From positions 1-49,630 of the forward strand of contig PLXR01000116.1 in assembly GCA_003151495.1 (NCBI GenBank): a stretch of DNA of 49,630 nt. The letters run 5' to 3'. Numbering within the stretch: position 1 is the first letter of the stretch; each line of letters begins with the position of its first letter. The stretch is from Opitutaceae bacterium (lineage in GTDB: Bacteria > Verrucomicrobiota > Verrucomicrobiia > Opitutales > Opitutaceae). Under the pieces are notes generated by a model that was given only the letters and a program-made list of their open reading frames with translations, did not search any database and was not told the DNA's origin. Below are positions 4,816 through 29,896 of this stretch, piece by piece. The translations under genes and the position numbers were made by a program.

Positions 4816-5193
4816 GGGCTAAACAATTCGCTCGAAAAACAGCAGCGGTGGGCCGCTATGAATGTGCGTAGGTGGGGGCCTGCGGAGTTAAGCGAAGGTT
4901 GGAATGAAAATAAGGCTGCCACAGGAATACGCCGCTTGTCGCTGCGTCAAGGTGGAACGCCGGTAGGCAGGGCTGCGCGACCAATGCAACCGCTTCGCGG
5001 GGCTTTCACCGGCACGACCAACGCGCAGATCCATTCGATGCTGCGTTACAATTGTGCAACGAGGCCTCGCTCGAATTGATGGCGCTGCCGAAATCGCCGG
5101 CCCATGCGTCTCCTACCGGGCCCGCCGCGGCCGTTCATGCGGTTCGGACCAACCCGATCTCGCTCCCCTGCGAGGTTCCCACGAAGGCCTTCC
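4816..5193. other. Gene-free stretch upstream of the 529-aa secreted protein gene
   Basis: No open frame here looks like a real protein. It is the 5' side of the minus-strand gene ending at 4815 and the 3' side of the minus-strand gene 5194-5697, so it should hold a promoter reading leftwards. The only candidate I see is a TTGACG box (minus strand, 4945-4950) followed after 15 bases by TATTCC (4924-4929), which is short of ideal spacing. One GTTACAATT box lies at 5045-5053. Confidence 0.4.
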
Positions 5194-7638: not shown

Positions 7639-8460
7639 ATGAACATACGAAACAAACTCCTCACGACCCTCGCAGCCGTCGCCCTGACGGCCGTTGGGGC
7701 TCACGGTCAGGAAATCCTCGCCACCAGCAGCGGCGGCAATACCGGTTTCAATGCCGGATACAACGACGGCGACCTGGTCCTGTCATTCTTCAGCTCTGCC
7801 GACAGCGGCCACAACGGCAACGTCCTGTTCGACCTCGGCTCCGCGAGTTCCTTTACGGGCCTCGCGGCCGGCACGTACTCCGTCGCGGGCTTCAACGGCA
7901 GCGCGACGGCTGGCCAGCCATCGCTTGGATTCGGGACCGCCGAACTCACCCCGAACGAGACGGTGCCGAGCGCCAACACGTTCTGGACGGTGATGGGTAG
8001 CAACACGACCAACAACCAGCTCTGGTTGACAAACACCGCGGCGGTGACGCAGCAGAGCGCCTCCACGCAGTCGACGGCCGCCAATATCATCCAATCCATT
8101 GGCTTTTCACCCATCGCCAATGGAGATGGTAGCGGCTTTGATAGCTCCCAGACGACGAATAGCTATCTGCTTTCGACCGGGAGTTTTCAAAACTTCGGCG
8201 GCACCGGAGTTGGCTCGACCCAAGTGGCGGCGACGAGCAACACAATGAACCTCTACAGCCTCCTCCCGGGCGTGTCCGGCGGTGGCAGCGCGACGAAGTT
8301 GGGTTTCTTCACGCTGACCGATACGGCCGGCGCGTTCTCGCTGTCGTTCACGGCGGTTCCGGAGCCCTCGACGTATGCGGCCATCCTCGGCGCGATTACG
8401 CTTGGCTTCGTGCTGGTCCGCCGTCGTTTCGGCGCCTCCAGGCTTAACCCCCTGGCCTGA
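7639..8460 (+). CDS. PEP-CTERM sorting-signal protein
   Basis: A 273-aa exported protein. Signal peptide at 1-23. The body (24-238) is homologous to the N-terminal domain of the protein encoded at 3226-4815. The C-terminus is a textbook PEP-CTERM signal: Val-Pro-Glu-Pro-Ser at 240-244, one hydrophobic helix (about 246-260), then RRR. It should be exported by Sec, held in the inner membrane by the tail and cut by the exosortase at 1989-2969. The biochemical role of the body domain is unknown. It lies 78 bases after the PstS-like gene, beyond a hairpin, and is itself closed by a strong terminator hairpin. Confidence 0.88.
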   Translation: MNIRNKLLTTLAAVALTAVGAHGQEILATSSGGNTGFNAGYNDGDLVLSFFSSADSGHNGNVLFDLGSASSFTGLAAGTYSVAGFNGSATAGQPSLGFGTAELTPNETVPSANTFWTVMGSNTTNNQLWLTNTAAVTQQSASTQSTAANIIQSIGFSPIANGDGSGFDSSQTTNSYLLSTGSFQNFGGTGVGSTQVAATSNTMNLYSLLPGVSGGGSATKLGFFTLTDTAGAFSLSFTAVPEPSTYAAILGAITLGFVLVRRRFGASRLNPLA

Positions 8461-8546: not shown

Positions 8547-8555
8547 GTTACAATT
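8547..8555 (+). promoter_or_regulatory. Candidate promoter -10 box (GTTACAATT) for the giant exoprotein
   Basis: TACAAT at 8549-8554 is one base from the sigma-70 -10 consensus and lies between the terminator at 8494-8522 and the exoprotein ATG at 8626, giving a leader of about 65 bases. No convincing -35 box is seen at 16-18 bases upstream. The same nine bases occur in front of the TpsB gene (21555-21563). Confidence 0.4.
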
Positions 8556-8625: not shown

Positions 8626-11600
8626 ATGTCAAGACCGACGCGCGGGGTGCATTCGTCAGGCTTGTCGCGGGCATTATTTTGCACCGCGTGCCTCGCTTTG
8701 GTTGCCACGAGAGCCGGGGCCGGGGACCTGCTCCGCGGCGGCAGCAGTCCTACCCCCTCGCAAGGGAGCCCAGCCAGCCCGACCAAGGGCACGGCGACGC
8801 CGGTCAACCTGGTAGCTGGTGACGTCCTCCGGCGAACGGCGGCGGCATTGCAGGCCGTCAAGGCCATGCAGGCGGCCGCACAGGCTGCGGCGGGAGCTGC
8901 CACTGCGGCAAGGAACCTGGGCATCAACCCGCGTTATCCGACCCAGGGGATGCCCGACGTGACAGACGGGCTCAACGTGCCAAATAGCTCGGGGCCCGGT
9001 CTAAGCGTCGCGTACACCAATGGGGCCCCTACGCTCTGGGTGGGCGCCGCCGCTCCGATCCAGAAAACCTCATCCGGTTCGAACAACCCCACCCAAGTCA
9101 CGGTGACGGTCGACCAGCAGCAGCAGCAGGCATACCTGCAATGGCAGACCTTCGACGTGGGCAAGAGCACGTCCCTTGTCTTCGACCAAAGCGCCGGCGG
9201 ATCGAGCGCCGGCAATTGGATCGCATTTAACTACATCCGGGACCCGTCCGGCCGCCCCTCGCAGATCCTGGGAAGCATTTCCTCCGTCGGGCCCGCGAAT
9301 TCCCAGGGCGCGTCGACGACCGGCGGCCAGGTCTACGTCATAAACGCGAACGGGATCATCTTCGGCGGGTCCTCTCAGGTGAACACGGGCGCTTTGGTAG
9401 CCTCATCCCTGCCGATCAACACCAATCTGGTTCAGCGGGGCCTGCTCAATAACCCGGACGAACAGTTCCTTTTCTCCGCGCTGGCGCTCGCGCCCGGCAC
9501 CAACGGGCCCACGCCCGGGTTTGATCCGACCGCGGCGACCGCGGGCATTGCGCCGGCCCAGACTCCCTACGATCCGGCGGGCACGGGAGCCTCTGGCTCG
9601 AAGTACCCATACGGCGACGTGACGGTCCAGGCGGGAGCACAGCTGACCGCGCCCAGTTCGAACTTCGTCGGCGGCAAGGTCGCGCTCGTCGGGGCGAACG
9701 TCACAAATGCAGGGATAATCGCTACCCCCGATGGCCAGGCCATCCTGGCGGCCGGCCTGCAGGTGGGGTGGGCGGCCCACAGCTCATCAGATGCGACGCT
9801 GCGCGGTTTGGATGTCTATGTCGGCCAAGTCGCCGACTCGTCGCTGCCGAACCAGCCTCCCTCCGGCATCGCGACCAACGCGGACACGGGAACCCTTCTG
9901 TCAACCGGGCAACCCAGCCCGACGGCCGGGTTGATAGATGCCCCCCGCGGCGATGTGACCCTCGCGGGCGCTGCCGTCAACCAACTCGGTGTCATCGACA
10001 GCACGACCTCCGTATCCTACAATGGGCAAGTCGACTTGCTAGCGGCCTACAACAGCCTGAGCGGAAGGGGCTTCTCCGTTGCGCCGTTCTTTCCCCAGGC
10101 TACCGGTCCCGTGGCGTTGGGGGCCGACAGCCTTACGCAAATCCTGCCTCAAGTCGGCGACTCCGCAACGGTGGCTGCCACGTCGCTCGCCCTGCCATCC
10201 ACGGTGGTCATCCAGGGGGGCAACGTCACCTTCGCAGGGTCGTCGGATGCGGGCGCGCTCCTATTTGCGCCGAATGGCGCGGTCACCGTTGATGCCGGAT
10301 CCTGGCGGTTCACCAGCGGAGGAATAATAGCCGGGGGGGTGGTTTCGAGCAACAGCCTTGCCGCCTTCACCTTCGACGGCGGCACGATTACCCTGGCTGA
10401 CAATGCGGGGATCGACGTATCGGGCTCGGAGAACGTGAGCGCGTCGGTGCAGGAGAATATCGTCGCCGTGCAGCTCCTGGGTCCGCAACTGGCGGGGTCC
10501 CCCTTGCAGCGCAACGGACCTCTCCGTGGGCAGACGATTTATGTCAATGTCCTAGATACGGGGACCTACAATGGCCAGCCCTGGGTGGGCACCCCCCTGG
10601 CAGACACGTCCGGATATGTCGGCCTGATTCCGCATAGTGTGGGTGAGCTGACGGTCAATGGCGGCACCGTGTCCCTTCAGGCGGGCACGGCCGTCCATCT
10701 CAATTCCGGCTCAACGATCGACGTCGCGGGCGGCTGGAGCAACTACGCCGGGGGGACGGTGCAGACGTCCAAGCTGCTCTATCAGGGCAAACTGGTCGAC
10801 ATCTCGCAGGCCACTCCCGACCATGTCTATGACGGCATATACACCGGCACGTCCACCGTCGCGGATGCAAAATGGGGCGTCACCTCGACTGTGAGCAGCC
10901 CGTTGCCGCTCGGAACCCTCCTGTCTTCCTATGTGCAGGGCGGCAATGGCGGGTCTGTCGCGATCACGGCCGGATCCATCACCACCAACGGCTCCCTGTT
11001 CGGACAGACGTACGCGGGCCAGAACCAACGCCAGCCATTCGTGCCCTATACCAGTTCCACACCGCAGACTGTCGCCAGCGCCGGAATCGATCCGAGGGTC
11101 TGGGAGCTGAACAGTGTGCCAGCGCCCAGTTCGCTGTCCCTGACCTTTCAGCAACAATACCTCGTTGGGCCCGGGCTGTACGCCAGCTTTTCCCCGTCGC
11201 CGCCCGATATCTATTTCCTACCGGCGACGGCGTTGCCGCCCAACGATCCCAACGCGCTCATTCTTTCTCCCAGCCTCACCGACCCGGATGCGACGACGTA
11301 CGGCGGATTCGGCAATCTCACGATCGATGACAGCGCGGGTAACGAGAAGATCAACGCCCAGAGCCAGCTTGTGGTGCCGCCCGTGCCGTCGACCCAGACG
11401 ATCACGATTCCAGCCGGGGTGACCCTGGAAACGGCCCCGGGGGGCTCGGTGAGCCTGAGCGCCGCGAACCTCCAGGTCCAGGGCGGCATTGTTGCGCCCG
11501 GCGGCAAGGTCAGCCTGACATCGAGCGACTTTTGGAGCAATTCGCCCTACCTCACGGGCTCCGGGGCCAGCACTTACGGGATTCCCGCCTACAATCCGCT

Positions 11601-14600
11601 GCGTGGCAATCTGACCGTCGGGCCCCAAGGGACCGTCAGCACAGACGGTCTCATAGTCGATAATCGATCGAGCGCCGGCCAGACGGAACCCTTGATCACG
11701 GCGGGCGGGTCGGCCGCCCTGTCGGGCTCAAACGTCACACTGGCCGCGGGCGCGGTCGTTTCCGCCAATGGAGGTGCGTCGATTGGCGCCACCGGCCGGG
11801 TTACCTATGGTGGCGGCGGCGCGGTTGCGCTCGAGGCGGGCGGTGAGGCGGCCTCGGGCATCACCATACTTGGCGGTTCCCTCTCGTTCGATGTCGCGGG
11901 ACAGATCAACTCGGCTCCGGCTTTTGCGCCGCTTCAGGCCTACTCTGGATCGTCCGGCGGAAAATTGACCCTCGAATCTTCACTCATTCAAGTGGGCACG
12001 TCACCGGGGGTCACTCCGCCTGCCGGAGCGCTTGTCCTTCCCTCGGCCATGGCGGCAGGCGGCGGTTCCCAGGGTTTCTTCAACGCCGGGGGCTTCAGCG
12101 GCTTTACCTTGATCGGCCTGGGCGACGTGCTCGACCCGACGAGCGCCGATGCGCCGCTCATGAATTCCCAGGGGAAGGTTGTTACGGGAACGGCTGTCGC
12201 CATCGCTTCCGGCACGGCGACCGCCCCGACGCTCATTCATCCCCGTGTCAAACAGCTGCAGGTGATCCCCGGCGCATCCGGCTCCTGGCAGACGCAGATC
12301 CTAGTCCCGTTCACCTACCAGAACACCCCTGCCAGCCTCACCTTCAGCGCTCCGGGCGTGATCAACCAGACCAATCAGCTCGTCGGATTCAATGCGCTGG
12401 TTGCCCGGGGAGATATCGTCGTCGGCGCCGGGGCCACCGTTCAAACCGATCCGCAAACCAGCAGCGGCGGCGGCGTTTCGCTGACGGGCCAGACCGTTAC
12501 GGTGCTGGGTAACGTGATTGCCCCAGGAGGCACGATCTCAATCAAGGGCGGCCCCGATTCGACGACCCTCTTTCCCGGGCAGGTCCGGGGCCTGATCACC
12601 GTCGACCTCGGCCCAGACAGCCAGCTATCGACGGCGGGGTTGACCCTGTTGACCCCTGACAACGCCGGACGTGTGCCCGGCGAGGCGGGATACGTCAACA
12701 CGGGTGCAGTCGTTGGGGGCGGTTCCGTGACCCTGTCCGGGAACATCGTGACGGAGTCCAATCCCTCCAATCCCAATTCCGTCATCAATGTGAGCGGCTG
12801 GAGCGATGCGAATGACCACTGGGGCCTGCTCGAGATGGCTCCGCAATACAGCGGGGTGGCGACCAACCCGGTGCTATTGCAGACGCAGATGCAGACGCTG
12901 ATCCCGACAGTGGAGGCCAAGAACGGCGGGACCATCACGCTCAAGGCCGCACAGGCCCTTTTCCCCGACAAGAAGATGATCGGAGCCGCCGGCGGTGCGG
13001 GCGCCGCGGGAGGCACTCTGACGGTCAGCGGCCAGACCTTCGGAACCCTTCCGGGATCCGGCGACTTCTTCGACACTCTCCAAGTGACGGCTGCGGGCCC
13101 GACCATACCGGGGTCGTTCTATTCGGCGGGCCAGACGGCGATCGGGCGGGCCGTGCTGGGCTCCGGCGGGACTCCCTTGTCGGGATTGAACCTGGCGAAT
13201 TTCGCCGCCAGTAGCTTCTCGGCGGGCCGGTTCGACTCGCTCAACCTATACGGGGCGGTGTTCTTCCAGGGAACAAGTCCGATCAACCTGGCGGCGAAAG
13301 GGGAGCTCACGATCGGCGGCGACGCTTCAGCCTATTCCGGCGCGGGCTTTGTGTCCTCGAATGTGGCCGTGTCGCTGAACGCGGCGGAAGTCTTCCTCGG
13401 CCAATCCTACCTGCCACCCGTCCCGCTAGCGGACGAACCTCTCATATTCACAGATGGACAGACCTTCCCGGCGACGGGAGGAGTCGGTTCGCTCACAGTC
13501 AGTGCCGGAAGCAACGCCAATCCCGGTTTGATCAACATCGGAAACCTGACGCTTCAGAACATCTCCGTCACCAACCTGACGTCTGTCGCCGGCGACGTCC
13601 AAGGCTACGGAACGGTCGACATCGCTGGAAACCTGACGATCGCCGCGGACGCGGTATACCCATCGACCGCCAAGAGATTCACCATCGATGCGTACAGCAC
13701 CACGCCCCAGAATGGGGTGGTGCAGCCCGGTACGGTGATGTTTGAGGCGTCCTCGGCGACACCCGCTCGGCCGGTCCCGCTTTCGGCCGGCGGAACCCTG
13801 TCAGTCTACGCGTCGGTCATAAACCAGAACGGCGTGCTCTACGCGCCGCTCGGGACGGTCAATCTGGGCTGGGATGGCGCCGGCACGGCGCCTGCGACGG
13901 ATCGGATCACCGGACTCCCCGTGCCGTCGACGCAGACCCTGGCTTTGGGCGCGGGCAGCCTGACCTCCGTCTCCGGCAACTCGGCGGGCTACGTGTCGGG
14001 GGCGGGGCTGCCAATCCCCTATGGCATCAACCTGAATGGGACCTCCTGGATCGACCCCACCGGTGTGGACATCACAAGCGGCGGACCACCGGCGAAAGCG
14101 GTCAACCTCCAGGGAGTGGGCGTCACCATCGCTAACAATGCGACCATCGATGCGTCGGGGGGGGGCAACCTCTACGCCTACCAATTTGTTCCCGGCACCG
14201 GGGGCGAGGGCGACATTCTCACGGCAGCCTCCGGGAGTTTTGCGGTCCTGCCGGGTTACGCCGCGTCGTACGCGCCCTTTGCGGCATTCAACGGGAACAG
14301 GTCCAACACGAACGCGATCAACCTCCTGTATCCCGACCTGGGGTACTCGAGCAACGCGCTTTCGGTCGGCGAGCAGGTTCGGATCGATCTCGGCAATGGT
14401 TCTGGCGCCCAGACCTACACCCTGTTGCCGGCCCGCTATGCCCTGCTGCCGGGCGCCTTCCTGATTACGCCGATGGCGGGCTCGCCGGTGCCGTCAGCGC
14501 TGCCCACCGTACAGCCGGACGGCTCCTATGTGACGGTCGGCTATCTGTTCAATGGGTTCGATCCGACGCAACCCTTGTACTCGAATTTCGCCGTCGCGAC

Positions 14601-17600
14601 GGGGACGGCCGCCTCTGGTGCAGCCGGCGCACCGTCGTCGGCAAACACGGTGGTTCGGACACGGGCTCAGTACGCCGATTATCTCGCCACGACCTTCTTC
14701 AACTCGGCTAAGCCGGGCACCAGCGGGTCGACCAATGTGCCTGCCATCCCCGGGCCGGACGATGGTGGCCAATTGGCGATCACCGCCACGGGTTCCCTTT
14801 CGCTCCATGGCTCAATCGACGCTCGGGCGGCCGGCGGAGGCCAGGGCGGCGGCGTGGACATCAGCGGGAGCAATTCAGAGGCGATCGTGATCAACGACAC
14901 GGGAGTGGCGCCATCCTCGGGCGCCACGTCGAACACCCTTTTTCTGAGCGCCGGCGAACTCTCCAATTTTGGCGCGGGCAGCCTGCTCGTCGGGGGTACC
15001 CTGGCCGGATCGAAGGTGACCATCACGGCGCCCAGCCTGGAAGTGGCCAACGACAGCGGCGCCGCGCTGCAGGGGTCGGACATTATCCTCGCAGCCAATG
15101 GGTCCCTGACGGTCGACCCGGGGGCGGTCATTCAGGCCACGACCGCCGCCGGTTCCGCGGCGAACCTTCAGATCACCGATACCGTTCAGCTCGCGCCCGC
15201 GTCGAGCATGGCGGCGGCGGGGGCCCCTTCGAAGCTCACGCTCGGCAAGGGCGGAACCTCGGTGACTTTTGTCCAGACTGTCCCGAAAGGGGAGACTCTG
15301 ACCGCCAGCGCAGCCGGAACCCTCGTTGACGTTGGAGGCGGGATCACCACCTTCGCCGCGGGAGCGACGTTCACGAGCGCCAGCACGGCCCTGGCCCAGG
15401 GCAGCTCGTTGAGCTTCACCGCGAGCGGCGGCGGCACCCTCACCTTGACCGGGACCGGCGCCGCCCTCCCCGTGACGCTCGGGGACGGCACGCTCCTGCG
15501 CGTCAGCGGGAGCGCCACGGCGACAACGACCCGGATTCCGATCGCATCGCCCGCTGTGCCGACGGTGCCCACCCTTGAGATCGGGGCCAAGGCTGTGCTG
15601 TCCGGGGCGAGCGTGGTGGTCGATTCGACAAACGTGGCGAGAATCGACTCGACGGCCATCCTGAGCGGCGGCATCTCGCTCCGCAGCGGCCAGATCAGCC
15701 TTGTGCTCGACCCCTCCCTGGCCGGGCCGGCGGCATCTGCCAGCCCGACCAGCCTGATCCTGAGCGGCCCCGCCTTGAAGGGGCTGCAAGCCAACGCCAC
15801 ATCGCTGTCGCTGGTGAGCTACTCTTCCATCGACACCTATGGTTCGGGGACAATTGGCGGACCCTCTGATACTGCGATTGAGCTCCACACGGGAGAGATT
15901 CGCGGGTTTGACCAAGGAACCGGCGGCCAGGCGCTAGGCGCAACCACCGCTGACACCTCCGTGACCTTTGAGGCCAAGGCCATAACGTTGGACAACGGCC
16001 CGGGTGCCAAGGGGCCGGGCCCGATTTCCGCGGGCGGGGGGGCGGGGGCTGTGACGTTCGACGCGACGGCGGGCGCGATCTCTCTGGGCGCAAACACGCT
16101 TGGTATCGATCAGTTTGCAAACGTGGCACTGACGGCGACCGGTGGCGTGCTCGTCCTGGGGTCGTCGGCCACACCCGGGGCCTTGGCTGTGTCGGGCAAC
16201 CTTACGTTGTCGGCGCCGATCGTCACCGGGGCCGTGGGGGCTGTTGGTACGCTGTCGGCGACGCAGGGCAGCCTGACAATCGCGCCGCTGGCCGGGGGGA
16301 CGGCTACGGTCAAGAGTGGACTGGGTGCCAGCCTGACCCTTCAGGGTTCAAGCGTAGATGTGACGGGCGATATCTCGCTCCCAAGCGGAAACATCACCGT
16401 TTCGGCGAATGGAGCAACGGCCTCCACAGGAGGCGTTTCGATCGGGGGCACGCTTGACGTCGCCGGGAAGGCCCAGGCGTTCAATGCCGACACGGCCTAC
16501 ACGGATGGAGGCCAAATTGCCCTGAACTCGTCAAACGGGAGCGTTGCGCTGCTCCCTGGCGGCTACCTTAGCGTGGCGGCGCCCAGCGGGGGCGGAAACG
16601 CCGGAGCCATATCCGTCAGCGCGCCGTCCGGCGCATTCTCGATCGCCTCCGTGTCGACCAGCCAAAACGGAGTCTCAGTGCCCAGCCTGGATGGGAGCGC
16701 ACCCAAGGGACAGGCCGGCACCTTCTCCCTTGATGTGATGAACCTGAGCGATGCGAGCGGGAATATCACCGCGTCTCTCGGGCCCCTCGAGACAATCCTT
16801 GGCGCGGGCGACTTTGCCCTTTCCCAGTCGATTCGCGTGCGTACAGGGAACGTGATCGTCGATGGCGCGGTCAAGGCCCGCACGCTCCTCCTCTCAGCCG
16901 ACGATCCGGCCGCCAAGAGCGGAAACATTGAGGTGACCCCGAGTGGCGAGATTGATGCCTCAGGCCCGGCCGGGGGCACGGTTGAACTTGACGCGAGCGG
17001 GGGCGTGACCCTGGACAGCGGTTCGGCGATTTCGGTTCGCGGAGTGAACTTCAACGACGCCGGACGCGGCGGTTCCGTGACGCTTCATGCAGGTTCCTAC
17101 GTCGGTTCGGGGGCCAAGGCCCCTTCCGACCTGAGGAACCCAACGACCGGATTGTTTGCCGGCGGCGCCATGGTGGATATCAGCGCCGGGTCGACTGTGG
17201 ATCTTTCCGTGGCCAACGACCACGCGCTCCAACTCAATCCAGGAGGCGCCTCGGCATCGACGCCCCCGGGCTCGATCACCGTTCCGTCGGGAGTGGCGGT
17301 CTATTTTCCCGGAGGCACGCCGGGCAACGATTCGGTGACCATCACGCAAGACGGCGTGGCAACCCTAGCGGACGGTACGGTCCGGACATTCAAGGCGGGC
17401 AGCGCTCTTCAGCTGCCCAGCCAAAGCACGCTCACGCTATCGAATTCCGGCTCGATCACTTTTGCAGGCGGGTCGGGTGGCTCCATTCCAGTGGACGTTC
17501 CGAGCCAACTGGCGGGCGGCGGAGTCCTGAATCTGTCACCCGTTAACGCAACCGATCTCACTGCATTCAACGCGACGGGCACGCTCACTTTGGAGGCCCG

Positions 17601-21480: not shown

Positions 21481-21532
21481 GTTATCCGGTTCAATGCCGA
21501 GTGGCGGAAGGGGGTTGGTCGGTGCGAAGGAG

Positions 21533-21562
21533 GGGACATTCAGGCGCGGTTTCTGTTACAAT
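21533..21562 (+). promoter_or_regulatory. Candidate promoter for the TpsB-Ton-porin genes
   Basis: GGGACA (21533-21538), 18 bases, then TACAAT (21557-21562): four and five of six matches to sigma-70 consensus. It lies in the 174-base gap between the exoprotein stop and the TpsB start. A weak inverted repeat (CTCAGG 21591-21596 with CCTGAG 21611-21616) follows before the start codon. It could give separate expression of the transporter and Ton genes; read-through from the exoprotein is also possible. Confidence 0.4.
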
Positions 21563-21654
21563 TCTGCGCAAACGCGGGAGGGACTTGAAACTCAGGCTAG
21601 GGGCAATTTTCCTGAGCTTTTGCTATCAAAACGCTCCTTCAGCGCATCTTTTGT

Positions 21655-23346
21655 TTGCGCCCACAACGTCCTGACATTCGGACTCTTGCCCGCTGCCCGA
21701 GACGGAGTCGTGCGCTCTTCCAACGAGCATGGCTCACGGTCCTCCGGGCGTTGCCGCTCGGTGCAGGAATTTCGCTTTGGACGGCGATGAACGCCGGCCC
21801 TGCAGGATACTTCTTCATCTCCGAATACCGCGTGCACGGCGTCCATTCCATCACCTCGCTGGAAATCGAGAAGGCGGTTTATCCGTTCCTGGGTCCCGCG
21901 CGCACCGCGGATGACATTCAGGGGGCATGCTCGGCGATCGAAAAAACCTACCAGGCACTGGGATACGGGGCCGTCTCTGTCAGCCCGCTCGGCTCGGCAA
22001 ACCGGTCGGGCACGGTCGAGCTCCAGGTTACGGAGGGAAAGGTGGAGCGCCTCCGGGTTAAGGAGGCGCATTATTTTTCGCCCGAGAAGATCAAGGAGGC
22101 GGCCCCATCGCTCGCCGAGGGACGAGTGATCAATTTCAACGACATCAGCAAGGACGTGGTCGGGTTGAGTCAGCTGCGCGAGCGCACCGTGACCCCGACA
22201 CTGCGCCCGGGTTCAGAGGCCGGAACCTACGACATAGATCTCACCGTGAAGGACTCGCGCCCTTTCCATGCAAGCGCCGAGCTGAACGACGACAGGACAC
22301 CGAACACGAAGCCCCTGAGGCTGACCGCATCGGTGAGCGACTCCAACCTCTGGCAGTCCGGCCAGGGTGCCGGCTTCAGTTTCGAGGAAGCGCCGCAGCG
22401 CCGGTTGGATTCGGAGGTGTTCTCGGGCTACTTCCTTGGACGAGTTCCCGGCAATGACTGGCTCAGCATCATGGTCCAGGGCACGAAGCAGGACAGCAAC
22501 ATCTCGACGCTTGGTGGCTCCACGGTCGCGGGACCCGGTACGACAGCCGAAATCCGCACGATGATGGCGCTGCCGAACGGCAAGGATTGGAGCACGGGCA
22601 AGGACTGGGAGAATTTCGCGCAGTCGGTCTACGTGGCGATCGGCTACAAGCATTTCAAGCAGAGCGTGAATCTGACCCCGAGCTCGACCACGACGGCAAC
22701 AACGGGTGAGATCGTGACGCCGATCACCTACTATCCGGTCACAGCGGGCTACTCGGCGACCTGGAGCGGCGCAGGAGGCAAGGGCCCAACAACGGGGATC
22801 GACGCCTCCGTAACGCTCAATTTTCGGGGAATGGGCAGCGGACCGAGGGAATTTGACCTGAACCGGTTCGGCGCCGACGGCAGCTTTACCATATTCCGGG
22901 GCGACGTCTCGCACACCCATCCCTTGCCCGGCGGATGGGAGGCCTATGCAAAAGTGTCGGGCCAGGTCGCGAACCAGCCGCTCGTGAGCAGCGAGGAGTC
23001 CAGCGGGGGAGGGGAGCAGACGGTCCGGGGATACCTTGAGTCGGAGGTCGTAGGGGATGACGGCGTCTTCGGCACCTTCGAGCTACGCTCGCCCGCGGTC
23101 CTGATGATGGGACAGGAGCGTGAATGGCACTTCTACGTCTTCGGGGACGCAGGGAAGCTCAAGGTCATCGATCCCCTGCCCGAGCAGGTGGCGCACTATT
23201 CACTCTCAAGCATCGGCGTCGGCAGCCGGCTTTCCCTTTTCGACCACGTGAGCGGCGGGTGCGACGTGTCGTATCCGCTCATCAGCCAGACGTACACACA
23301 GGCGCACCAGCTCCAGTTCAGGTTCCGCGTGGGGCTGGAGTATTGA
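21655..23346 (+). CDS. TpsB outer-membrane transporter (ShlB/FhaC/HecB family)
   Basis: A 563-aa Omp85-superfamily transporter for the adjacent exoprotein. After an N-terminal hydrophobic stretch (about 25-45) come POTRA domains (about 53-130, ISEYRVHGVHSI to ELQVTEGKVERLRV, and about 131-198). A 16-strand-type barrel fills 199-563. The conserved lid-loop motif VRGY is at 457-460 (GEQTVRGYLESE), and the last residue is aromatic (Tyr), as expected for BAM-inserted barrels. The first possible start in frame is a TTG at 21655; the next ATG (21787) would remove the export signal, so TTG is taken, with low certainty. Its stop lies 5 bases before the ExbB-fusion start, so the genes are probably co-transcribed. 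Confidence 0.9.
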   Translation: MRPQRPDIRTLARCPRRSRALFQRAWLTVLRALPLGAGISLWTAMNAGPAGYFFISEYRVHGVHSITSLEIEKAVYPFLGPARTADDIQGACSAIEKTYQALGYGAVSVSPLGSANRSGTVELQVTEGKVERLRVKEAHYFSPEKIKEAAPSLAEGRVINFNDISKDVVGLSQLRERTVTPTLRPGSEAGTYDIDLTVKDSRPFHASAELNDDRTPNTKPLRLTASVSDSNLWQSGQGAGFSFEEAPQRRLDSEVFSGYFLGRVPGNDWLSIMVQGTKQDSNISTLGGSTVAGPGTTAEIRTMMALPNGKDWSTGKDWENFAQSVYVAIGYKHFKQSVNLTPSSTTTATTGEIVTPITYYPVTAGYSATWSGAGGKGPTTGIDASVTLNFRGMGSGPREFDLNRFGADGSFTIFRGDVSHTHPLPGGWEAYAKVSGQVANQPLVSSEESSGGGEQTVRGYLESEVVGDDGVFGTFELRSPAVLMMGQEREWHFYVFGDAGKLKVIDPLPEQVAHYSLSSIGVGSRLSLFDHVSGGCDVSYPLISQTYTQAHQLQFRFRVGLEY

Positions 23347-23351
23347 ACCCA

Positions 23352-25385
23352 ATGAGCACCTCCATGTCCGCACCCATCCCGAAGAAGAAAGCTGCCGTGC
23401 GCCAGCCCGACCCCCGGGCGGGTTCCTTTGGTCTCCTCCTGGCGGCGGCGCTCTTCCTTGCCTTCGCGAGTCCGGCGGGTGCCTGGTGGGACAGCGAGTG
23501 GACCCTGCGAAAGCAGGTCGTGCTGGACACAACCGGCACGGGCGTCCCGATCAGCGACCCGATCGGGTCGGTCCCCGTCCTTCTTCGGCTCCATGACGGC
23601 AACTTCCGGTTCGACGCTGCGAAGGCGGACGGGACAGACCTCAGGTTCGTCGCGGAGGACGACAAGACTCTCCTTGCGTTCCACATTGAGAAATTCGACT
23701 CGGTGCTGAACGAGGCGTATGTCTGGGTGAACGTCCCCGCCGTCAAGGGAGCGGCCAAGACCTCGTTCTGGCTCTATTACGGCAACACCGGGAACAAGGC
23801 CGTAAAGGTGGAGAACGCGAAGGAAACTTACGATTCAGGCACGACCCTGGTCTATCATTTCAACGAGCGGGGCCAGCCCAGCTTTGATTTCACGGGCCAG
23901 GGCAACAACGCGCAGAACGCCGGCGTCGCCGCCGATGGCTCGATGATTGGTACGGGCCTGCGGCTCGACGGGCGGACTGCCGTCACGATCTTTGCCAGTC
24001 CGGCCATGTCGTGGCGCGAGGCGGGGCCCATGACTTGGTCGGCATGGGTGAAGTTCGGCCAGCCGCAGACCCAGGCGGTCTTCTTCAGCCGGCGGGACGG
24101 ATCCAACCTGATCATCATCGGCGCAGACATGGGCGTTCCGTTCGTGGCAATGACCTACAACGGGGGGGTGGTCCGAAGCGGCGCCGGCTCGCCGGTCGCA
24201 CCGGGCAGCTGGCACCACCTGGCCGTGGTGGCGTCGGGGCCCAGGGTCGACCTCTACCTTGACGGCGAGCCCTTCAGCAACGTCATCGAGCCGCTTCCGG
24301 CGCTCAACGGTCCCAGCCTCCTCGGGGGGGATCCCGCATCCGTTGCCAACGGCATCACGGGCTTCGTCGGGGAAATCGACGAGCTGCAGATCTCGAGCGT
24401 GGCGCGCTCGCCGGGCTTCATTAGGTTCGCCGCGGTCGAGCAGGCGGGAGACTCGGGTTCGAAGCTCCTGGCTCTAGGCGCCGACGAGCAGCAGACGAGC
24501 ATCTTCAGCTTCCTGAAGAAGGGCTACATCGGGGTCATCATCGGCTCGCTCACCCCGGACGGCTGGGCGGTAATTGGGCTCCTTGGGATCATGTTTATAA
24601 TCAGCTGGTTCGTCATGATCAGCAAGGCCCTGTTCCTTAACCGCGTCGGCAAGGGCAATGAGGCGTTCCTCAGGGAATGGCGGAAGATGGGCAACAAGTT
24701 CGGGGCGATCGACTCCAAGAATGGAGGCGGCGAGCAACCCGCGGCGGCAGGTGCGGCCGTGTCCGCGGTTCCGGCTGGAGGCGAGCCCGTGAGGGGCGGG
24801 ACGAGTGCCAAGGCTGCTGCGGGCGCAAGTGATCCTACGAGATACGGCGGCACCATGCCGGCGAAGAAGGTGGCAAAGGCGCCCTCAAAGGGAGGCGTGC
24901 TCCGCTACTCCCCGCTCTACCACGTCTACCACCTGGGAATGGAGGAGATCCGCCACCGTTTGGCGGACAAGAGGGAGGCGGGGAAGGTGAATGTCATCTC
25001 CGCACGGTCCATCGAGGCCATACGCGCAACCCTTGACGGAGGGGTGGTTAGGGAGTCGCAGCGCCTCACCAGCCAGATGGTGCTGCTGACGATCGCGATC
25101 TCCGGCGGGCCGTTCCTTGGTCTCCTGGGCACGGTCGTGGGCGTCATGATCACCTTCGCCGCCGTGGCCCAGGCGGGCGACGTGAACGTTAACGCCATCG
25201 CCCCCGGCATCGCGGCGGCGCTCGCGGCGACCGTGGCGGGGCTTGCCGTGGCGATCCCGTCACTCTTCGGCTATAACTACCTGCTCACACAGATAAAGGG
25301 GATGACGAGCGACATGCAGGTCTTCGTGGACGAGTTCGTGACCAAGCTTGCCGAGTTCTACCAGGAGGACGAATCGGAGGATTAG
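23352..25385 (+). CDS. DUF2341-LamG-ExbB fusion (MotA/TolQ/ExbB proton channel)
   Basis: A 677-aa membrane protein with a large exported front end. Signal peptide at about 20-44. A DUF2341 domain (about 45-165, starting WWDSEWTLRKQVVLD) precedes a LamG/concanavalin-like domain (about 170-375: TLVYHFNE, GTGLRLDG, MTWSAWVKF, SWHHLAVVASG, GEIDELQIS). The ExbB part has membrane helices near 403-425, 575-605 and 615-650 and the channel signature GGPFLGLLGTVVGVM. An unusual Ala/Gly/Lys-rich insert (about 455-530) lies in the cytosolic loop. ATG 23352 is chosen; the frame runs back to 23124 but that would overlap TpsB. It should pair with the following ExbD and TonB to turn proton flow into work, with the lectin-like domain in the periplasm. 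Confidence 0.9.
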   Translation: MSTSMSAPIPKKKAAVRQPDPRAGSFGLLLAAALFLAFASPAGAWWDSEWTLRKQVVLDTTGTGVPISDPIGSVPVLLRLHDGNFRFDAAKADGTDLRFVAEDDKTLLAFHIEKFDSVLNEAYVWVNVPAVKGAAKTSFWLYYGNTGNKAVKVENAKETYDSGTTLVYHFNERGQPSFDFTGQGNNAQNAGVAADGSMIGTGLRLDGRTAVTIFASPAMSWREAGPMTWSAWVKFGQPQTQAVFFSRRDGSNLIIIGADMGVPFVAMTYNGGVVRSGAGSPVAPGSWHHLAVVASGPRVDLYLDGEPFSNVIEPLPALNGPSLLGGDPASVANGITGFVGEIDELQISSVARSPGFIRFAAVEQAGDSGSKLLALGADEQQTSIFSFLKKGYIGVIIGSLTPDGWAVIGLLGIMFIISWFVMISKALFLNRVGKGNEAFLREWRKMGNKFGAIDSKNGGGEQPAAAGAAVSAVPAGGEPVRGGTSAKAAAGASDPTRYGGTMPAKKVAKAPSKGGVLRYSPLYHVYHLGMEEIRHRLADKREAGKVNVISARSIEAIRATLDGGVVRESQRLTSQMVLLTIAISGGPFLGLLGTVVGVMITFAAVAQAGDVNVNAIAPGIAAALAATVAGLAVAIPSLFGYNYLLTQIKGMTSDMQVFVDEFVTKLAEFYQEDESED

Positions 25386-25400
25386 TCCCCGACACCCGCC

Positions 25401-25802
25401 ATGCACGCACAGTCCGAGGAAAAACCCTACGATGACATCAACATCACGCCGATGCTGGACCTGGCCTACGTGCTGCTGGTCATCTTCATCCTCATGTGCA
25501 CGGCCTCGGTCCAGGGCGTGAAGGTGAACCTGCCGAAGGCGAGCGCGGCCCCAAGCCTCGCGAAACCGAAGACGCGCGCCATCACGGTCAACAACGAGGG
25601 GAAGATATTCCTGGATACAATCCCGGTTTCACTCCAGGAGCTGGAGCAGCGCCTGACCCAGGCGAAGGCGCAGGGGGGCGAGTTCCCGGTCGTGATCAAG
25701 GGGGACAGCCAGACCCAGTACCAGGGGATCATGGACGTGCTGGACATCCTCGGCAGGCTGGGGCTGTCCCAGGTGGGCCTGGCGACAAAGACAAGGGCTT
25801 GA
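25401..25802 (+). CDS. ExbD/TolR family biopolymer transport protein
   Basis: A 133-aa inner-membrane protein with one N-terminal helix (about 18-36) holding the essential aspartate Asp20 in NITPMLDLAYVLLVIF, matching the proton-path Asp of ExbD. A periplasmic ExbD fold follows (ITVNNEGKIFL, VVIKGDSQTQYQGIMDVLDILGRLG). It lies 15 bases after the ExbB fusion and 3 bases before the TonB gene, a tight ExbB-ExbD-TonB order. It forms the stator with ExbB. Confidence 0.95.
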   Translation: MHAQSEEKPYDDINITPMLDLAYVLLVIFILMCTASVQGVKVNLPKASAAPSLAKPKTRAITVNNEGKIFLDTIPVSLQELEQRLTQAKAQGGEFPVVIKGDSQTQYQGIMDVLDILGRLGLSQVGLATKTRA

Positions 25803-25805
25803 GCC

Positions 25806-26483
25806 ATGGGCCTCAACGACGAATACGACTACCAGGGGCCGAGCGGCTCCAAGAAGTATGGACTCCTCTTCGGAGTCGGGCTTGTCGTGCTCGTTGTCGC
25901 GGGCCTCGTCTTCGGCCGGATGTTGACGGGTAAGCACGCTCCGACGGGCAAGATGCCGGAGGTCGTGATGATCAAGCCCCTGGCCCCGACCCCGCCTCCG
26001 CCTCCGCCACCGAAGGTGGAGCCGCCCAAGGAAATGGTCCAGAAGATGGTCGAGCAGACTCCCATCGACCGCCCCGAGGACAAGCCGGAGGAGCCCAAGG
26101 ACGCGCCGGCGCTGACCACGAGCCTGACCGGTCCCGGAAACGACGGATTTGGCCTCTCCGGTGGCAACGGAGGGGGCTCAGGAGGGGGTGGTCACAGCCA
26201 GGGAAGCCAGTTCGGATGGTATGCCGGGGAGGTCCAGAAGACGATCCAGGAGGCACTTAGCCGCAACCCGATCTCCAGCCACGCCCAGTTCTCCAGGAAG
26301 GCGCGCGTATGGGCCGATGCCAGCGGACGCGTCACCCGATTCAAACTGGCGGGGGCGACCGTGGATCCGTCGGTCGACAGAGCGATCGAGGAGGCGGTCA
26401 CGGGCCTTCAATTCCCCGAGCCGCCGCCCCCGAACATGCCGATGCCGATAGTGATGCGCCTCACGGCCCGCCGCCCGGGCTGA
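25806..26483 (+). CDS. TonB-family energy transducer
   Basis: A 225-aa protein with a TonB layout. A cytosolic N-tail is followed by one membrane helix (about 18-40), a Pro/Lys/Glu-rich periplasm-spanning segment (about 55-110, with PTPPPPPPPKVEPPKE) and a Gly-rich hinge (about 116-138). The TonB C-terminal domain (about 142-225) includes VWADASGRVTRFKL, VDRAIEEAVTGLQFPEPPP and IVMRLTARR. It would carry energy from the ExbB/ExbD motor to an outer-membrane partner. No TonB-dependent receptor is nearby; the adjacent outer-membrane proteins are TpsB and the porin. Confidence 0.93.
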   Translation: MGLNDEYDYQGPSGSKKYGLLFGVGLVVLVVAGLVFGRMLTGKHAPTGKMPEVVMIKPLAPTPPPPPPPKVEPPKEMVQKMVEQTPIDRPEDKPEEPKDAPALTTSLTGPGNDGFGLSGGNGGGSGGGGHSQGSQFGWYAGEVQKTIQEALSRNPISSHAQFSRKARVWADASGRVTRFKLAGATVDPSVDRAIEEAVTGLQFPEPPPPNMPMPIVMRLTARRPG

Positions 26484-26516
26484 GCGCAGGCACAATACCA
26501 GGAACTCCGACAATTC

Positions 26517-29261
26517 ATGGCCTCCGCCCCCTTACGCATACGCCGCCCGCTTCTCACGGTCCTGGCCATTGCATGGCTGGCGACCTCGATCCCGGTTCCC
26601 TCGGCAAATGCGCAGGACGCAGGGGAGGCCCGCCAGGCGGCCCCTGCGCCGGCTCCGGAGAAGAGCACCATGGTATCCCTCATCGAGAGGCTCGCGTCTC
26701 GGGGAGCCCTTTCAAAGGATGACGCGGTCGAGCTCGTGGCCCAGGCAAATGCGGACTCGGCCGACGCAAGGGTCCAGGCCGCGGAGGCCGTCCTAGCGGC
26801 GGCAAAAGCCGAGGCAGCGCTGGCAAAGGCGCAGGCGGCCGCAGCTCAGGCGGCCTTTGCCGTGGCGCGCGCCAAGGAGGCCATCAGGCAGGTCGGATCC
26901 ACCCGCGGCGCGCAGATAGCGGCCGCAAAGCAGCTTCTTGGATTGCCGGCGGGTGCGCCAGGGAACTCCGGAGCAGGCGCCGATGTGTTCCCTGATTCGG
27001 CAGCTCCACAGCAGCCTGCTGCGGACGCCGCGGTTGCCGCGTCGGGCGACAATCCTCGGGCGGGTGCGCCGGTGGCGGAGCAGGCCGAACCGGCCCGTCC
27101 CGCATCGATGCCCGCCGATGGGGATCGTTCCCAGGATGGCGCGTCGGCGCCCGCTCCGGCCCCAGATACACAAAGCGCTCTGGTCGACAATTCGCCTCCA
27201 TCGGACGTGGGGGCCCAGGCGCCTAGGGCAATGACCCGCGCCCACCGCGGGAAGGAGGGTGCCGTGAGCGTATCGGATGTGCTCGGCGACGGCGCGCCCG
27301 CGGCCCCCGCGGATTCCGGCTCGACGGACACGGCGTCAGCGGTTCCCGATTCATCAAACGCGTCGCCAGGAGAGCAGACATCCGCCTCGAGCGGTCCAAC
27401 AGAGTCCTCGCCGGCTGAGGAGCCGTCCCATCGTGAGGCAGCTTCCGCCGACCAAGTCGCCGCGGGAGGGGACGGCACGCAGGCCACGCGGGTTTCGGAC
27501 GCCTTGGGAGAAACGGCGCCCTCCGCGACGCCGCAGACTCCCTCGGCGGACCAATCCGCCGCAGGCGGGGACTCCCCGGGCCAGGCCGACCGACAGGGAA
27601 CGCCGAGCGACGGGCAGGGTGCCGGGACTGCGGATGCATCCGCGGCCCCGCAAGGCGACGCCCCGGCCGCGCCTGTGGGCGACGAGACGCCCGAGCGGAC
27701 ACGTGAGGTGTCGCAGGCGTCGGGCTCCAGGCGCCATAAGAATTCCGGCGGCGTGCTGTCCGCCGACGACACCGTGACGGTGGCCTACGTGCCCGAGGTG
27801 GTCAGGAACCAGATCACCGCGGAGGTCAAGGACGAGGTGATCGCGCAGGCCCGCAAGGAGGGATGGGGGGGAAAGACGCCGGAATGGGTTACGCGCCTGA
27901 CGCTCTACGGGGACATACGCGTGAGGTTCGAGGCCCTCATCAACCACTCTACCAATGACAACACGGGCGCCTTTCCAAACTTCAATGCAATCAACACGGG
28001 CGCGCCCTTTGACACGACCGGCGCGGTCTATTCCCCGCAGTTCAACGTCGACCAGAATCGTAGGCGGGAGCGGCTGCGGGCGCGCTTGGGCCTGACGGTG
28101 GACCTCGAGAACGGCTTCACCGCCGGCCTGCGCCTGGCCACCGGAAACGACAATAACCCGGTGACCGAGAACCAGACCTTCGGAGCTGCGGGAAACGCCC
28201 AGGGGGGCGATTTCGCCAAATATGCGATCTGGCTCGACCGCGGCTACATCAGGTACATGAGCCCGGGCGACCAAGCCTCCAGATTCTCGCTGACGCTCGG
28301 CCGCTTCGACAATCCTTTCCAATCCACGACGCTCATCTGGGCGAACGACCTGGCATTCGACGGCGCGGTCATGAAGCTGCCGCTGAAGGCCCATTTCGGC
28401 GAGGAGTCGACCGACGCATTCAAGCCCTTCATTGTGGCCGGCATCTTTCCGATCTTCAACACCGACCTGAATTTCGCGTCGAACCAGCCCGCGAAATTTC
28501 CCAGCTATGACAAGTGGCTCGAGGCTGCGCAGGTCGGGGCCACATGGAAGCTGGGCGACGACTTCACGTTCAAGTCGGCCGTCGCCCTGTATTATTACCA
28601 GAACGTCCAGGGTCAGCTATCGACACCCTTTACGCCCCTTACGACCTCGGATGCCGGTAGCACTGATGCGAGCCGCCCGTCATTTGCCCAAAACGGCAAC
28701 ACGTACATGTTGTTGCGCGACATCGTGCCCGGGCCTCTCAACGGAAACGGTACGATCGACCAATGGCAATATTACGGCCTCGCGACGCGGTTCCACGAGC
28801 TGGCGCTCACCCAGGAGATCGACTACAACCATTTCGAACCCTTCCAGGTCGCACTCGTCGGCGAGTACGTGAAGAACCTGGCGTTCAACCAGGCGTTGAT
28901 CGCTCCCGTCGCGATCAACAACAAGGGCCCAGCTGTGGGAGGGGTTACGCCCTATCTTGGCGGGGACAAGGGATGGCTGGTGAACCTGAAGGTGGGTGAC
29001 CTGCTCCTGGAGCACTTTGGCGATTGGAACGCGGCGGTTGGGTACCGCCATGTCGAGTCGGACGCCGTGGTGGACGGGTTCAACGATGCGGACTTCGGGG
29101 GCACGCTCACGGGAACCAATCTCCAAGGCTACACACTCAGCGCAAGTCTGGCGATAGCCAAGGGAGTGTGGTTCGAGGGTCACTGGTTCGCCGCAACCTC
29201 AATCGTAGGCCCTGTCTACAAGAACGACCTTCTCCAGTTGGACATGAACGTGAAATTCTGA
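26517..29261 (+). CDS. Putative porin with coiled-coil and long Pro/Ala/Ser linker
   Basis: A 914-aa outer-membrane protein. Signal peptide at 1-32 (ending SANA). An Ala/Lys/Glu-rich coiled coil fills about 47-130 (LIERLASRGALSKDDAVELV, then heptad-like AEAALAKAQAAAAQAAF). Residues about 150-410 are a low-complexity Pro/Ala/Ser/Gly/Asp segment with internal imperfect repeats (SADQxAAGGD; SDxLGxxAPxA). From about 416 to the end lies a barrel of the 'putative porin' (Porin_5) type: VPEVVRNQI, LTLYGDIRVRFE, RRRERLRARLGL, GLRLATG, LGRFDNPF, and a C-terminal Phe. The coiled coil may trimerise the protein or reach the peptidoglycan. It is last but one in the Ton operon. The substrate is unknown. 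Confidence 0.85.
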   Translation: MASAPLRIRRPLLTVLAIAWLATSIPVPSANAQDAGEARQAAPAPAPEKSTMVSLIERLASRGALSKDDAVELVAQANADSADARVQAAEAVLAAAKAEAALAKAQAAAAQAAFAVARAKEAIRQVGSTRGAQIAAAKQLLGLPAGAPGNSGAGADVFPDSAAPQQPAADAAVAASGDNPRAGAPVAEQAEPARPASMPADGDRSQDGASAPAPAPDTQSALVDNSPPSDVGAQAPRAMTRAHRGKEGAVSVSDVLGDGAPAAPADSGSTDTASAVPDSSNASPGEQTSASSGPTESSPAEEPSHREAASADQVAAGGDGTQATRVSDALGETAPSATPQTPSADQSAAGGDSPGQADRQGTPSDGQGAGTADASAAPQGDAPAAPVGDETPERTREVSQASGSRRHKNSGGVLSADDTVTVAYVPEVVRNQITAEVKDEVIAQARKEGWGGKTPEWVTRLTLYGDIRVRFEALINHSTNDNTGAFPNFNAINTGAPFDTTGAVYSPQFNVDQNRRRERLRARLGLTVDLENGFTAGLRLATGNDNNPVTENQTFGAAGNAQGGDFAKYAIWLDRGYIRYMSPGDQASRFSLTLGRFDNPFQSTTLIWANDLAFDGAVMKLPLKAHFGEESTDAFKPFIVAGIFPIFNTDLNFASNQPAKFPSYDKWLEAAQVGATWKLGDDFTFKSAVALYYYQNVQGQLSTPFTPLTTSDAGSTDASRPSFAQNGNTYMLLRDIVPGPLNGNGTIDQWQYYGLATRFHELALTQEIDYNHFEPFQVALVGEYVKNLAFNQALIAPVAINNKGPAVGGVTPYLGGDKGWLVNLKVGDLLLEHFGDWNAAVGYRHVESDAVVDGFNDADFGGTLTGTNLQGYTLSASLAIAKGVWFEGHWFAATSIVGPVYKNDLLQLDMNVKF

Positions 29262-29263
29262 CC

Positions 29264-29896
29264 ATGAAAAGGAAGTCGATTTACCTCACCCTGGCGACCG
29301 CTCTAGCACTTCTTGGCCTTGTCGCGACTCGGGCGCGGGCTGCTGATACCAGTGGCGATGAGCGGCTTCGCCAGAACCTGAGAGACACAATGATGCAGTT
29401 GCGGCAAGCCCAGTCGGACCTTGCCGCGTTCCAGGCGACCCAGGCGGCCCAGGCCGACGAGGGGAAGGCCGCCAAGGAGCAGCTTGCGCTCCTCATAAAG
29501 CACAGTTCCGACGACAAGGCCGAGTCCACAAAGGCGGTCGAGGCCCTCAAGGCCAAGCTTTCCCAGAGCGAGGGTGCGGTGGCGAAGCTGGAGGATTCGC
29601 TGGCGCAGTGGAAGGCAGCCGCCGAGAAGATGAACCAGGCATCCCGATCCGCCGAGGTAAAGCTTTCGAAGGCATTGGCGAGCGCGGCGGCCTTTGAGCG
29701 CCGGGCTGAGGACCTGAAGATCAAGAACGCAGAGCTCTTTCGGATAGGAAGCGAGATCCTCGACAGGTACCAGAAGTTCAGCCTGGGACAGCAATTCCTT
29801 GCAAGGGAACCCTTCATAGGCAGGGCCAGGGCGGACCTCGAGAGCCAGATCCAGGACTTTTCCGACCAGATGGAGGCCGAGAAAGTCGCCCCCTGA
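29264..29896 (+). CDS. Periplasmic coiled-coil protein of the Ton-porin operon
   Basis: A 210-aa exported protein. Signal peptide at 1-27 (MKRKSIYLTLATALALLGLV and on, ending ARA). Almost all of the rest (about 33-165) is predicted coiled coil, rich in Ala/Lys/Gln/Glu with heptad spacing. A conserved-looking C-terminal block follows (IGSEILDRYQKFSLGQQFL, then FIGRARADLESQIQDF). It starts 2 bases after the porin stop, so translational coupling is likely. The frame runs back to 29024 inside the porin gene, but only ATG 29264 gives a signal peptide. Possible roles are a scaffold linking TonB, porin and cell wall, comparable in position to accessory proteins of other Ton systems; this is inference. 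Confidence 0.8.
   Translation: MKRKSIYLTLATALALLGLVATRARAADTSGDERLRQNLRDTMMQLRQAQSDLAAFQATQAAQADEGKAAKEQLALLIKHSSDDKAESTKAVEALKAKLSQSEGAVAKLEDSLAQWKAAAEKMNQASRSAEVKLSKALASAAAFERRAEDLKIKNAELFRIGSEILDRYQKFSLGQQFLAREPFIGRARADLESQIQDFSDQMEAEKVAP

Follow-up and report, generated by a model that had tools for sequence, protein, structure and literature searches.

We analysed a stretch of 49,630 nucleotides (the window) from contig PLXR01000116.1 of an Opitutaceae bacterium of the phylum Verrucomicrobiota (assembly GCA_003151495.1). It contains a module of seven genes for a giant fibre exported by two-partner secretion (TPS), a Ton motor, an outer-membrane porin and a coiled-coil protein. The module has the gene order of the pdt/PUMA3-type locus of Pseudomonas aeruginosa, namely TpsB, ExbB, ExbD, TonB, porin and a further periplasmic protein, together with TpsA. 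It appears to belong to a known but unexplained kind, to which new evidence now gives a likely purpose. With a probability of about 0.47, we read it as a surface module for phosphate starvation, of the same kind as the PUMA3-regulated pdt locus of P. aeruginosa. In this reading, the Ton motor would act on a porin of a phosphate-associated family and the fibre would be its capture or attachment partner. The link to phosphate is new relative to the original prediction, a first reading of the window from its letters. The regulation and the porin kinship rest on relatives of the window locus, and the target of the motor is an inference.

The seven genes proved to be as first described: all are open, lie on the plus strand and match the named Pfam families, and the TpsA length of 4,284 aa is borne out when counted from the ATG at 8626. 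The gaps of 5, 15, 3, 33 and 2 bases between the last six genes are also correct, provided that the start of ExbB is taken as 23352 and that of the coiled-coil gene as the ATG at 29264. According to Pfam, the locus holds both partners of type Vb secretion (a TPS-domain TpsA and a TpsB with POTRA domain and ShlB-type barrel) and a complete Ton motor, with the ExbB proton channel, ExbD and a TonB C-terminal domain encoded side by side. In ExbB, DUF2341 and a lectin-type domain precede the membrane part on a single protein. The TonB_2 match of the energy transducer reaches 25.2 bits (cut-off 22); TIGR01352 stays below its cut-off (24.3 vs 27.1). Ahead of its Porin_5 barrel, the porin carries an extension of about 400 residues rich in A, P, S and D, and comparison of the module porin with solved structures gave weak matches only, the best being of the OmpW type. 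For the coiled-coil protein, the Pfam scan found no family above cut-off. A separate Rfam search gave 0 matches. The stop of TpsA (21480) and the TpsB open reading frame (ORF), taken from the TTG at 21655, are separated by 174 bases; an alternative TpsB start at the ATG at 21787 would cost the apparent signal peptide. Because this gap is not short, TpsA and the genes from TpsB onward are probably carried on two transcripts.

The module is almost certainly a real conserved unit. Across 288 genomes of the phylum, DUF3739-TpsA was present in nine and strong Porin_5 matches in the same nine; among the matches listed, module-type porins scored at least 556 bits and the remaining Porin_5 proteins at most 127 bits. 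Likewise among the matches listed, the best ExbB relatives with the N-terminal domain came from eight of these nine genomes, the copy in genome G215 being interrupted by a contig end; a weaker match to that domain alone was seen in a genome outside the nine (G148). Regions from the nine genomes carried the entire set together, with that of G215 spread across contigs. G215 also has two DUF3739 TpsA genes, on separate contigs (L087, L088).

A scan of a species-genome collection with a porin profile yielded 289 relatives, of which the best 80, by title all Verrucomicrobiota except L168, were used for locus counts. TpsB, ExbB, ExbD and TonB stood ahead of the porin in every locus with a contig long enough to test this (59/59), and TpsB directly precedes ExbB in the Verrucomicrobiota loci. 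The coiled-coil gene directly followed the porin in 72/75 loci; L106 (Chthoniobacter flavus Ellin428), L127 and L169 were scored as lacking this gene, yet have it, because their longest ORF begins further from the end of the porin gene than the counting rule allowed. TpsA was found further downstream in 58/63 loci, and two of the five exceptions have a divergent TpsA. The common order in relatives runs from TpsB through the coiled-coil gene to TpsA, whereas the window starts with TpsA, like the loci of Klebsiella L174 and Variovorax L175. In 18 loci a gene lies between the coiled-coil gene and TpsA, PpiC-type in the sole member scanned, and 8/80 loci have two ExbD genes. Several neighbourhoods end at contig ends, and three regions that are the same contigs as profile hits (G013, G125 and G215_59, identical with L116, L166 and L133) were counted once. 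The exception by title, L168, is a metagenome-assembled genome titled Acetobacteraceae (an alphaproteobacterium); it has the module with a divergent TpsA and a porin 52% identical, through either transfer or mis-binning. A chance cluster was rejected on the strength of the 59/59 loci with conserved order. Homologues of these genes do not mostly occur apart, and the original proposal of one unit is strongly supported by gene order and co-occurrence.

The set was also found on plasmids of Pseudomonadota. Eleven plasmid records, from Methylosinus, Burkholderia, Variovorax, Cupriavidus, Klebsiella, Aquabacterium and Methylomagnum, encode the porin, and the same eleven encode the ExbB. TpsB, ExbB, ExbD, TonB, porin and coiled-coil gene lie together in 7/8 plasmid stretches read, the exception being Methylomagnum with its ExbB elsewhere on the plasmid. 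Neighbours include a sigma factor and FecR (Methylosinus), type II secretion genes (Cupriavidus), YbjN, PpiC, and phoU (Methylomagnum). When 40 proteins flanking the plasmid modules were scanned with Pfam, single matches came up, among them sigma-70, T2SSK and STN domains. Two proteins with a PBP_like_2 domain lie near the plasmid modules (Methylosinus, Methylomagnum), and the nearest solved structures for that of Methylosinus are DING/phosphate-binding proteins (E 2e-8). Two Klebsiella plasmids carry the module: the one behind L174, which is typed as conjugative, and NZ_CP065459.

Evidence for a phosphate link comes from the relatives of the porin. We surveyed Porin_5 proteins outside the module in 68 genomes and considered the 65 neighbourhoods in which the module-porin profile found the porin (L267, L268 and L274, where it missed the porin, were excluded; a PstS-type gene is present in two of them). 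The PstS profile was built from PF12849 loci, 16 of the 20 chosen giving a usable ORF. A PstS-type gene was located near the porin in 43/65 neighbourhoods, of which 34 have it no more than 600 bases away on the strand of the porin, compared with 0/12 regions around ordinary ExbB genes. One non-module locus reads response regulator, kinase, Porin_5, PstS, permease, permease, ABC ATPase and PhoU, by family a complete pho/pst operon. This indicates that Porin_5 outside the module is commonly a pst-operon porin in this phylum, and the module porin, which shares the Pfam barrel family, is probably a phosphate-type porin as well. The response regulators beside six module loci are 33–46% identical to the pst-operon PhoB, vs 52–73% identity among the latter, so they are probably not PhoB itself. 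Seventeen non-module Porin_5 neighbourhoods, L211 among them, contain a response regulator that shares 52% identity or more with the L211 protein.

Consistent with this kinship, Pho-box-like sites are enriched at the module in relatives. Canonical Pho boxes with a score of at least 18 occurred upstream of TpsB in 37/72 loci (14% in shuffled sequences), upstream of a substrate-binding-like gene that recurs ahead of the module in 7/30 (shuffles 8%) and upstream of TpsA in 12/77 (9%); frequencies at internal module genes were not raised (4–10%). A further profile was trained on 32 porin-pstS promoters only, its seed having been picked after a view of the canonical scan that included module promoters. 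With this profile, sites were detected upstream of TpsB in 21/65, of the substrate-binding-like gene in 12/30 and of TpsA in 11/73 cases, compared with 20/406 for the five internal genes together (Fisher p values of 1e-9, 1e-7 and 0.003, respectively, which are optimistic because the loci are related and not independent). The upstream region of the porin gene itself, counted as internal, had sites in 8/84 cases, about twice its shuffles. Regulation by phosphate is likely for this kind of module.

In the window, the 9-mer AATYGTAAC, spotted by eye and post hoc, occurs four times (5045, 5944, 8547, 21555) vs 0.15 expected, each time outside genes as delimited and ahead of one. A longer form, GCNNAATTGTAAC, has three copies in the 4.1 Mb genome assembly (80% complete), all of them in the window; it is likewise post hoc, having been constructed from the three sites that it finds. 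A second pattern tried in the window showed no excess. A strong site, CCGTCACGCATTCGTAAC (score 20.3), precedes the likely start codon of the genome's own PstS gene by about 65 bases. We lean, with less assurance than for the kind as a whole, towards phosphate regulation of the module in the window's genome too. Perfect and near-perfect copies of the pst-type site also stand before a sulfotransferase-like gene and within exopolysaccharide-type genes (G000:C131:9343-9360; G000:C75; L309, L311; gene names by eye), which makes a wider regulon or another regulator possible.

Module porins differ from other Porin_5 proteins in length (ORF median 633 vs 409 aa, the longest other being 556 aa). In 21 other Porin_5 proteins with starts printed, the barrel begins soon after the signal peptide, L040 having a longer lead. 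The extension of the module porins varies in length and contains two conserved stretches, a helix-like one (NLI..LV..G.LT.EEA..LI.QAEAEA) and, immediately before the barrel, a strand of the form D-D-x-V-R-V-T-Y-I/V-P-E-x-V-K/R-x-Q-I-R-D-E (RVTYIPExV-like). The strand is present by alignment in 94 distinct module porins, where one of its columns is V/I in 94/94, another K/R in 94/94, and the tyrosine is kept in 90/94; a regular expression for the strand matched 66/94 module porins vs 0/65 other Porin_5 proteins. The strand loosely recalls a TonB box. A second conserved strand lies at the TpsA C-terminus, where the pattern S/G-x-I/F/L-x-V/A/L-E/R-V/I/L-L/I/M-G/S-Y/F/L-G with variable flanks was present in 13/13 usable full-length module TpsA proteins (excluding L099, L100 and L109, on truncated contigs, and G125, in which TpsA is split). 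Both strands are candidate docking sites for TonB. We favour the porin as the target of the motor, since its strand is absent from non-module relatives, the tonB gene adjoins the porin gene and TPS export is reported to be energy-free.

Taken together, these data suggest the following model. Under low phosphate the cell would produce TpsA as a giant TPS fibre, which TpsB would export, perhaps aided by PpiC-type or coiled-coil proteins in the periplasm. A second transcript would supply the dedicated ExbB-ExbD-TonB motor and a Porin_5 channel related to PstS-side porins. TonB might dock on the strand that is conserved in the porin's N-terminal extension and so open, clear or steer the channel. 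Phosphate or phosphorylated matter retained on the cell surface, in all likelihood by the fibre, could then pass through the channel into the periplasm. That the motor acts on the porin has about an even chance of being right. The strongest form of the model, in which TonB pulls the extension strand of a plug-less porin for energised phosphate uptake of substrate gathered by the fibre, is rather doubtful. Among the uses that the original prediction had offered for the motor, serving the porin, or a TpsA that feeds the porin, is now the best-supported branch, and energising TpsB or releasing the fibre is less favoured.

Several observations weigh against this model. The window porin has no plug domain, Porin_5 being its sole Pfam match, and for this reason the porin was rejected as a TonB-dependent receptor. 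Its strand is only loosely TonB-box-like (relaxed pattern 52/94, strict 17/94; no consensus for the box was found in PMC11658791 by the terms used), and the TpsA tail has a conserved strand as well. With the pst-trained profile, 44/65 TpsB upstream regions fall under the threshold. At the TpsA and TpsB promoters of the window just a reversed half-site is present, the other two sites fitting the profile. The top profile scores of the window, 11.9 (26329) and 10.2 (9067), fall within coding sequence, which means that the window sites do not stand out by the profile alone. A scan of the eight Pseudomonadota plasmid stretches found canonical Pho boxes not in excess at the module. The substrate-binding-like gene resembles PstS only remotely and stands upstream in just 28/60 loci with at least 3 kb to inspect. 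Finally, zebrafish infections with P. aeruginosa overexpressing vreI revealed no role, as single mutants in tpsA, tpsB, the tonB homologue and PA0696 matched the wild type in virulence (PMC2729926).

The main rival explanation places the motor on the fibre: TonB would grip the C-terminal strand of TpsA, or TpsB itself, and the proton-motive force would finish export and hold or release the fibre, with the porin as a separate, co-regulated channel. The position of TpsB directly before ExbB in the Verrucomicrobiota loci and the tail pattern in 13/13 usable TpsA proteins speak for such a role, as does the precedent of PopC secretion driven by Oar-TonB in Myxococcus (PMC6434023). Against it, type V export is described as working without an energy source, also in reconstituted liposomes (PMC5422565), and both the strand of the module porin and the constant presence of the porin would be left unexplained. 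We consider this explanation improbable.

Two further alternatives accept phosphate control and are, in our estimate, each quite unlikely. Adhesin, Ton motor and porin might simply share one phosphate-starvation regulon and do separate jobs, the motor serving TonB-dependent receptors elsewhere; in agreement with this, no such receptor was found in the module, TpsA of P. aeruginosa has its own promoter (PMC4971064), and the 20 kb read around Ton sets with a similar ExbB in the same phylum (L089-L091) showed no TPS genes. Genes that work independently should become separated over time, however, and the order kept in 59/59 testable loci and the core held together in 7/8 plasmid stretches therefore speak against co-regulation only. 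Alternatively, a diverged porin could import another scarce solute under Pho control, as might be expected from module porins forming a subfamily of their own (at least 556 bits, compared with at most 127 bits for other Porin_5 proteins in the sample). Their kinship with PstS-linked porins and the phosphate-starvation control observed in P. aeruginosa (PMC9769906) argue for phosphate as the cargo.

Table 1. Features of the module, its candidate regulatory sites and its upstream neighbours in the window
Feature	Position	Strand	Basis
Member of the recurrent family that includes the PEP-CTERM protein at 7639-8460	3226..4815	-	Clustering; family in 26 loci
Pho-box-like site upstream of 3226-4815	5045..5062	-	Profile score 9.1; contains the 9-mer
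Pho-box-like site upstream of 6082-7560; further CGTAAC 22 bases on	5935..5952	+	Profile score 8.2; 9-mer
Apparently secreted, substrate-binding-like protein; recurrent module neighbour, possible remote PstS relative	6082..7560	+	Homologues, profile comparison
PEP-CTERM protein, recurrent module-neighbour family	7639..8460	+	PEP_CTERM match; family clustering
AATTGTAAC site upstream of the TpsA ATG, reverse orientation	8547..8555	-	9-mer count
TpsA fibre, TPS domain and C-terminal DUF3739	8626..21480	+	Pfam
Conserved short motif near the TpsA C-terminus, PSIINVEVLGYGG	21388..21426	+	Alignment of module TpsA tails
AATTGTAAC site between TpsA and TpsB, reverse orientation	21555..21563	-	9-mer count
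TpsB outer-membrane transporter, POTRA_2 and ShlB; start codon uncertain	21655..23346	+	Pfam
ExbB with N-terminal DUF2341 and lectin-type domain (Laminin_G_3), then MotA_ExbB	23352..25385	+	Pfam
ExbD	25401..25802	+	Pfam
TonB-family energy transducer, TonB_2	25806..26483	+	Pfam
Porin_5 outer-membrane channel with N-terminal extension	26517..29261	+	Pfam, E 2e-168
Conserved strand in the porin extension, DDTVTVAYVPEVVR, candidate TonB docking site	27765..27806	+	Alignment, regular expression
Coiled-coil protein, apparently periplasmic, conserved C-terminal motif	29264..29896	+	Open ORF, homologues

The two genes directly ahead of TpsA (6082-7560 and 7639-8460) have recurring counterparts next to the module in related loci. 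The substrate-binding-like protein had no match to PF12849 (PstS-type) over the gathering score in Pfam; of ten relatives scanned, one matches most of that domain below the cut-off (E 0.0034). In profile-profile comparison, its family aligned with PstS, an R-x-D-S-G-T stretch included, with a probability of 1.6% and a score of 24.8, lower than an unrelated coiled-coil profile (33.7); the other eight profiles scored 10.7–19.7 and a reversed PstS profile 13.5. Sequence-profile searches in both directions were weak (best 8.7e-5 in 29 and 1.5e-5 in 16 sequences), and a comparison of the family with solved structures gave nothing relevant.

The family shared by 3226-4815 (minus strand) and 7639-8460 (plus strand), apparently secreted and often PEP-CTERM, occurs beside the module in 26 loci. 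Directly behind the module lie three PEP-CTERM-like proteins with a C-terminal PEP motif seen by eye, at 29969-30613 (minus), 30801-31481 (minus) and 31849-32754 (plus), the third of which had no Pfam or NCBIfam match. An exosortase-like protein (by eye; 1671-2969, plus) is antisense to the start of an O-antigen-ligase-type gene (Wzy_C; 347-2080, minus), which means that at least one of the two start codons is wrong. In the region 36489-43631, the long minus-strand ORFs 36489-38183, 38180-39715 and 41988-43631 had no Pfam match.

Operons that combine a giant TPS fibre, a dedicated Ton motor and a porin are spread across Verrucomicrobiota and Pseudomonadota, including P. aeruginosa, and the porin kinship to PstS-linked porins and the module-specific strand make the question of what the Ton system drives a testable one. 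If the proposed reading is true, the reach of Ton-driven processes would widen to plug-less porins and phosphate, in a class distinct from TonB-dependent receptors, and many DUF3739 'adhesins' could be nutrient-capture devices. The adjacency of Porin_5 and PstS across Verrucomicrobiota may supply a function for a Pfam family that bears just the label 'putative porin'. Searches of the literature on DUF2341 with ExbB, DUF3739, Porin_5/PF16930 and TPS in Verrucomicrobia found no description of the module in this phylum, with subscription journals largely uncovered; that for DUF3739 gave nothing.

Among known systems, the P. aeruginosa pdt locus is the closest, an equivalence that rests on gene lists and the plasmid relatives. 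From TpsB onward it shows the same order, TpsB, ExbB, ExbD, TonB and a putative outer-membrane porin, then a protein of unknown function. It also has a PpiC gene (compare the 18 relatives noted above) and is under phosphate control, to which the enrichment of Pho-box-like sites in relatives of the window locus corresponds. In P. aeruginosa, pdtA is transcribed separately from a promoter of its own, and another single promoter serves phdA, pdtB, exbB2-exbD2, tonB4 and PA0696-PA0701; both require PhoB and sigma-VreI, and PhoB binds both (PMC4971064). PA0696 is a putative outer-membrane porin, PA0697 is said to be structurally like channel-forming colicins and PA0699 is PpiC-type (PMC7035377). 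PdtA and PA0696 are among the proteins most increased under low phosphate, alongside OprO and OprP (PMC9769906). As early as 2009, TPS, ExbBD and PA0696 genes were noted to be associated in further Pseudomonadota as well, and Pf-5 and Pf01, of the Pseudomonas fluorescens group, were named as strains with PUMA3 homologues (PMC2729926). The original prediction knew of no assigned function for such gene orders. This still holds for the Ton genes, as exbB2-exbD2-tonB4 were termed 'still uncharacterized' as of 2020 (PMC7035377), but the same set is under PhoB and sigma-VreI control in P. aeruginosa, where pdtAB is reported to be involved in virulence towards Caenorhabditis elegans (PMC7035377; a nematode role also in PMC5422565). 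The window differs in what stands in front, with PEP-CTERM and substrate-binding-like genes instead of an extracytoplasmic function (ECF) sigma factor/FecR and type II secretion; no VreA-VreI-VreR (ECF sigma, FecR-type) or Hxc/type II secretion genes were found among the window proteins scanned with Pfam.

Two other systems offer partial parallels. In HxuCBA of Haemophilus influenzae, a TpsA-TpsB pair is likewise coupled to TonB-dependent uptake of what the surface protein captures; its substrate is haem, and the transporter, HxuC, is TonB-dependent and not a porin (PMC5422565). Oar-TonB and PopC in Myxococcus resemble the module in that a Ton motor performs an outer-membrane task beyond classic uptake, whereas Oar, as a TonB-dependent transporter, has both a plug and a TonB box (PMC6434023).

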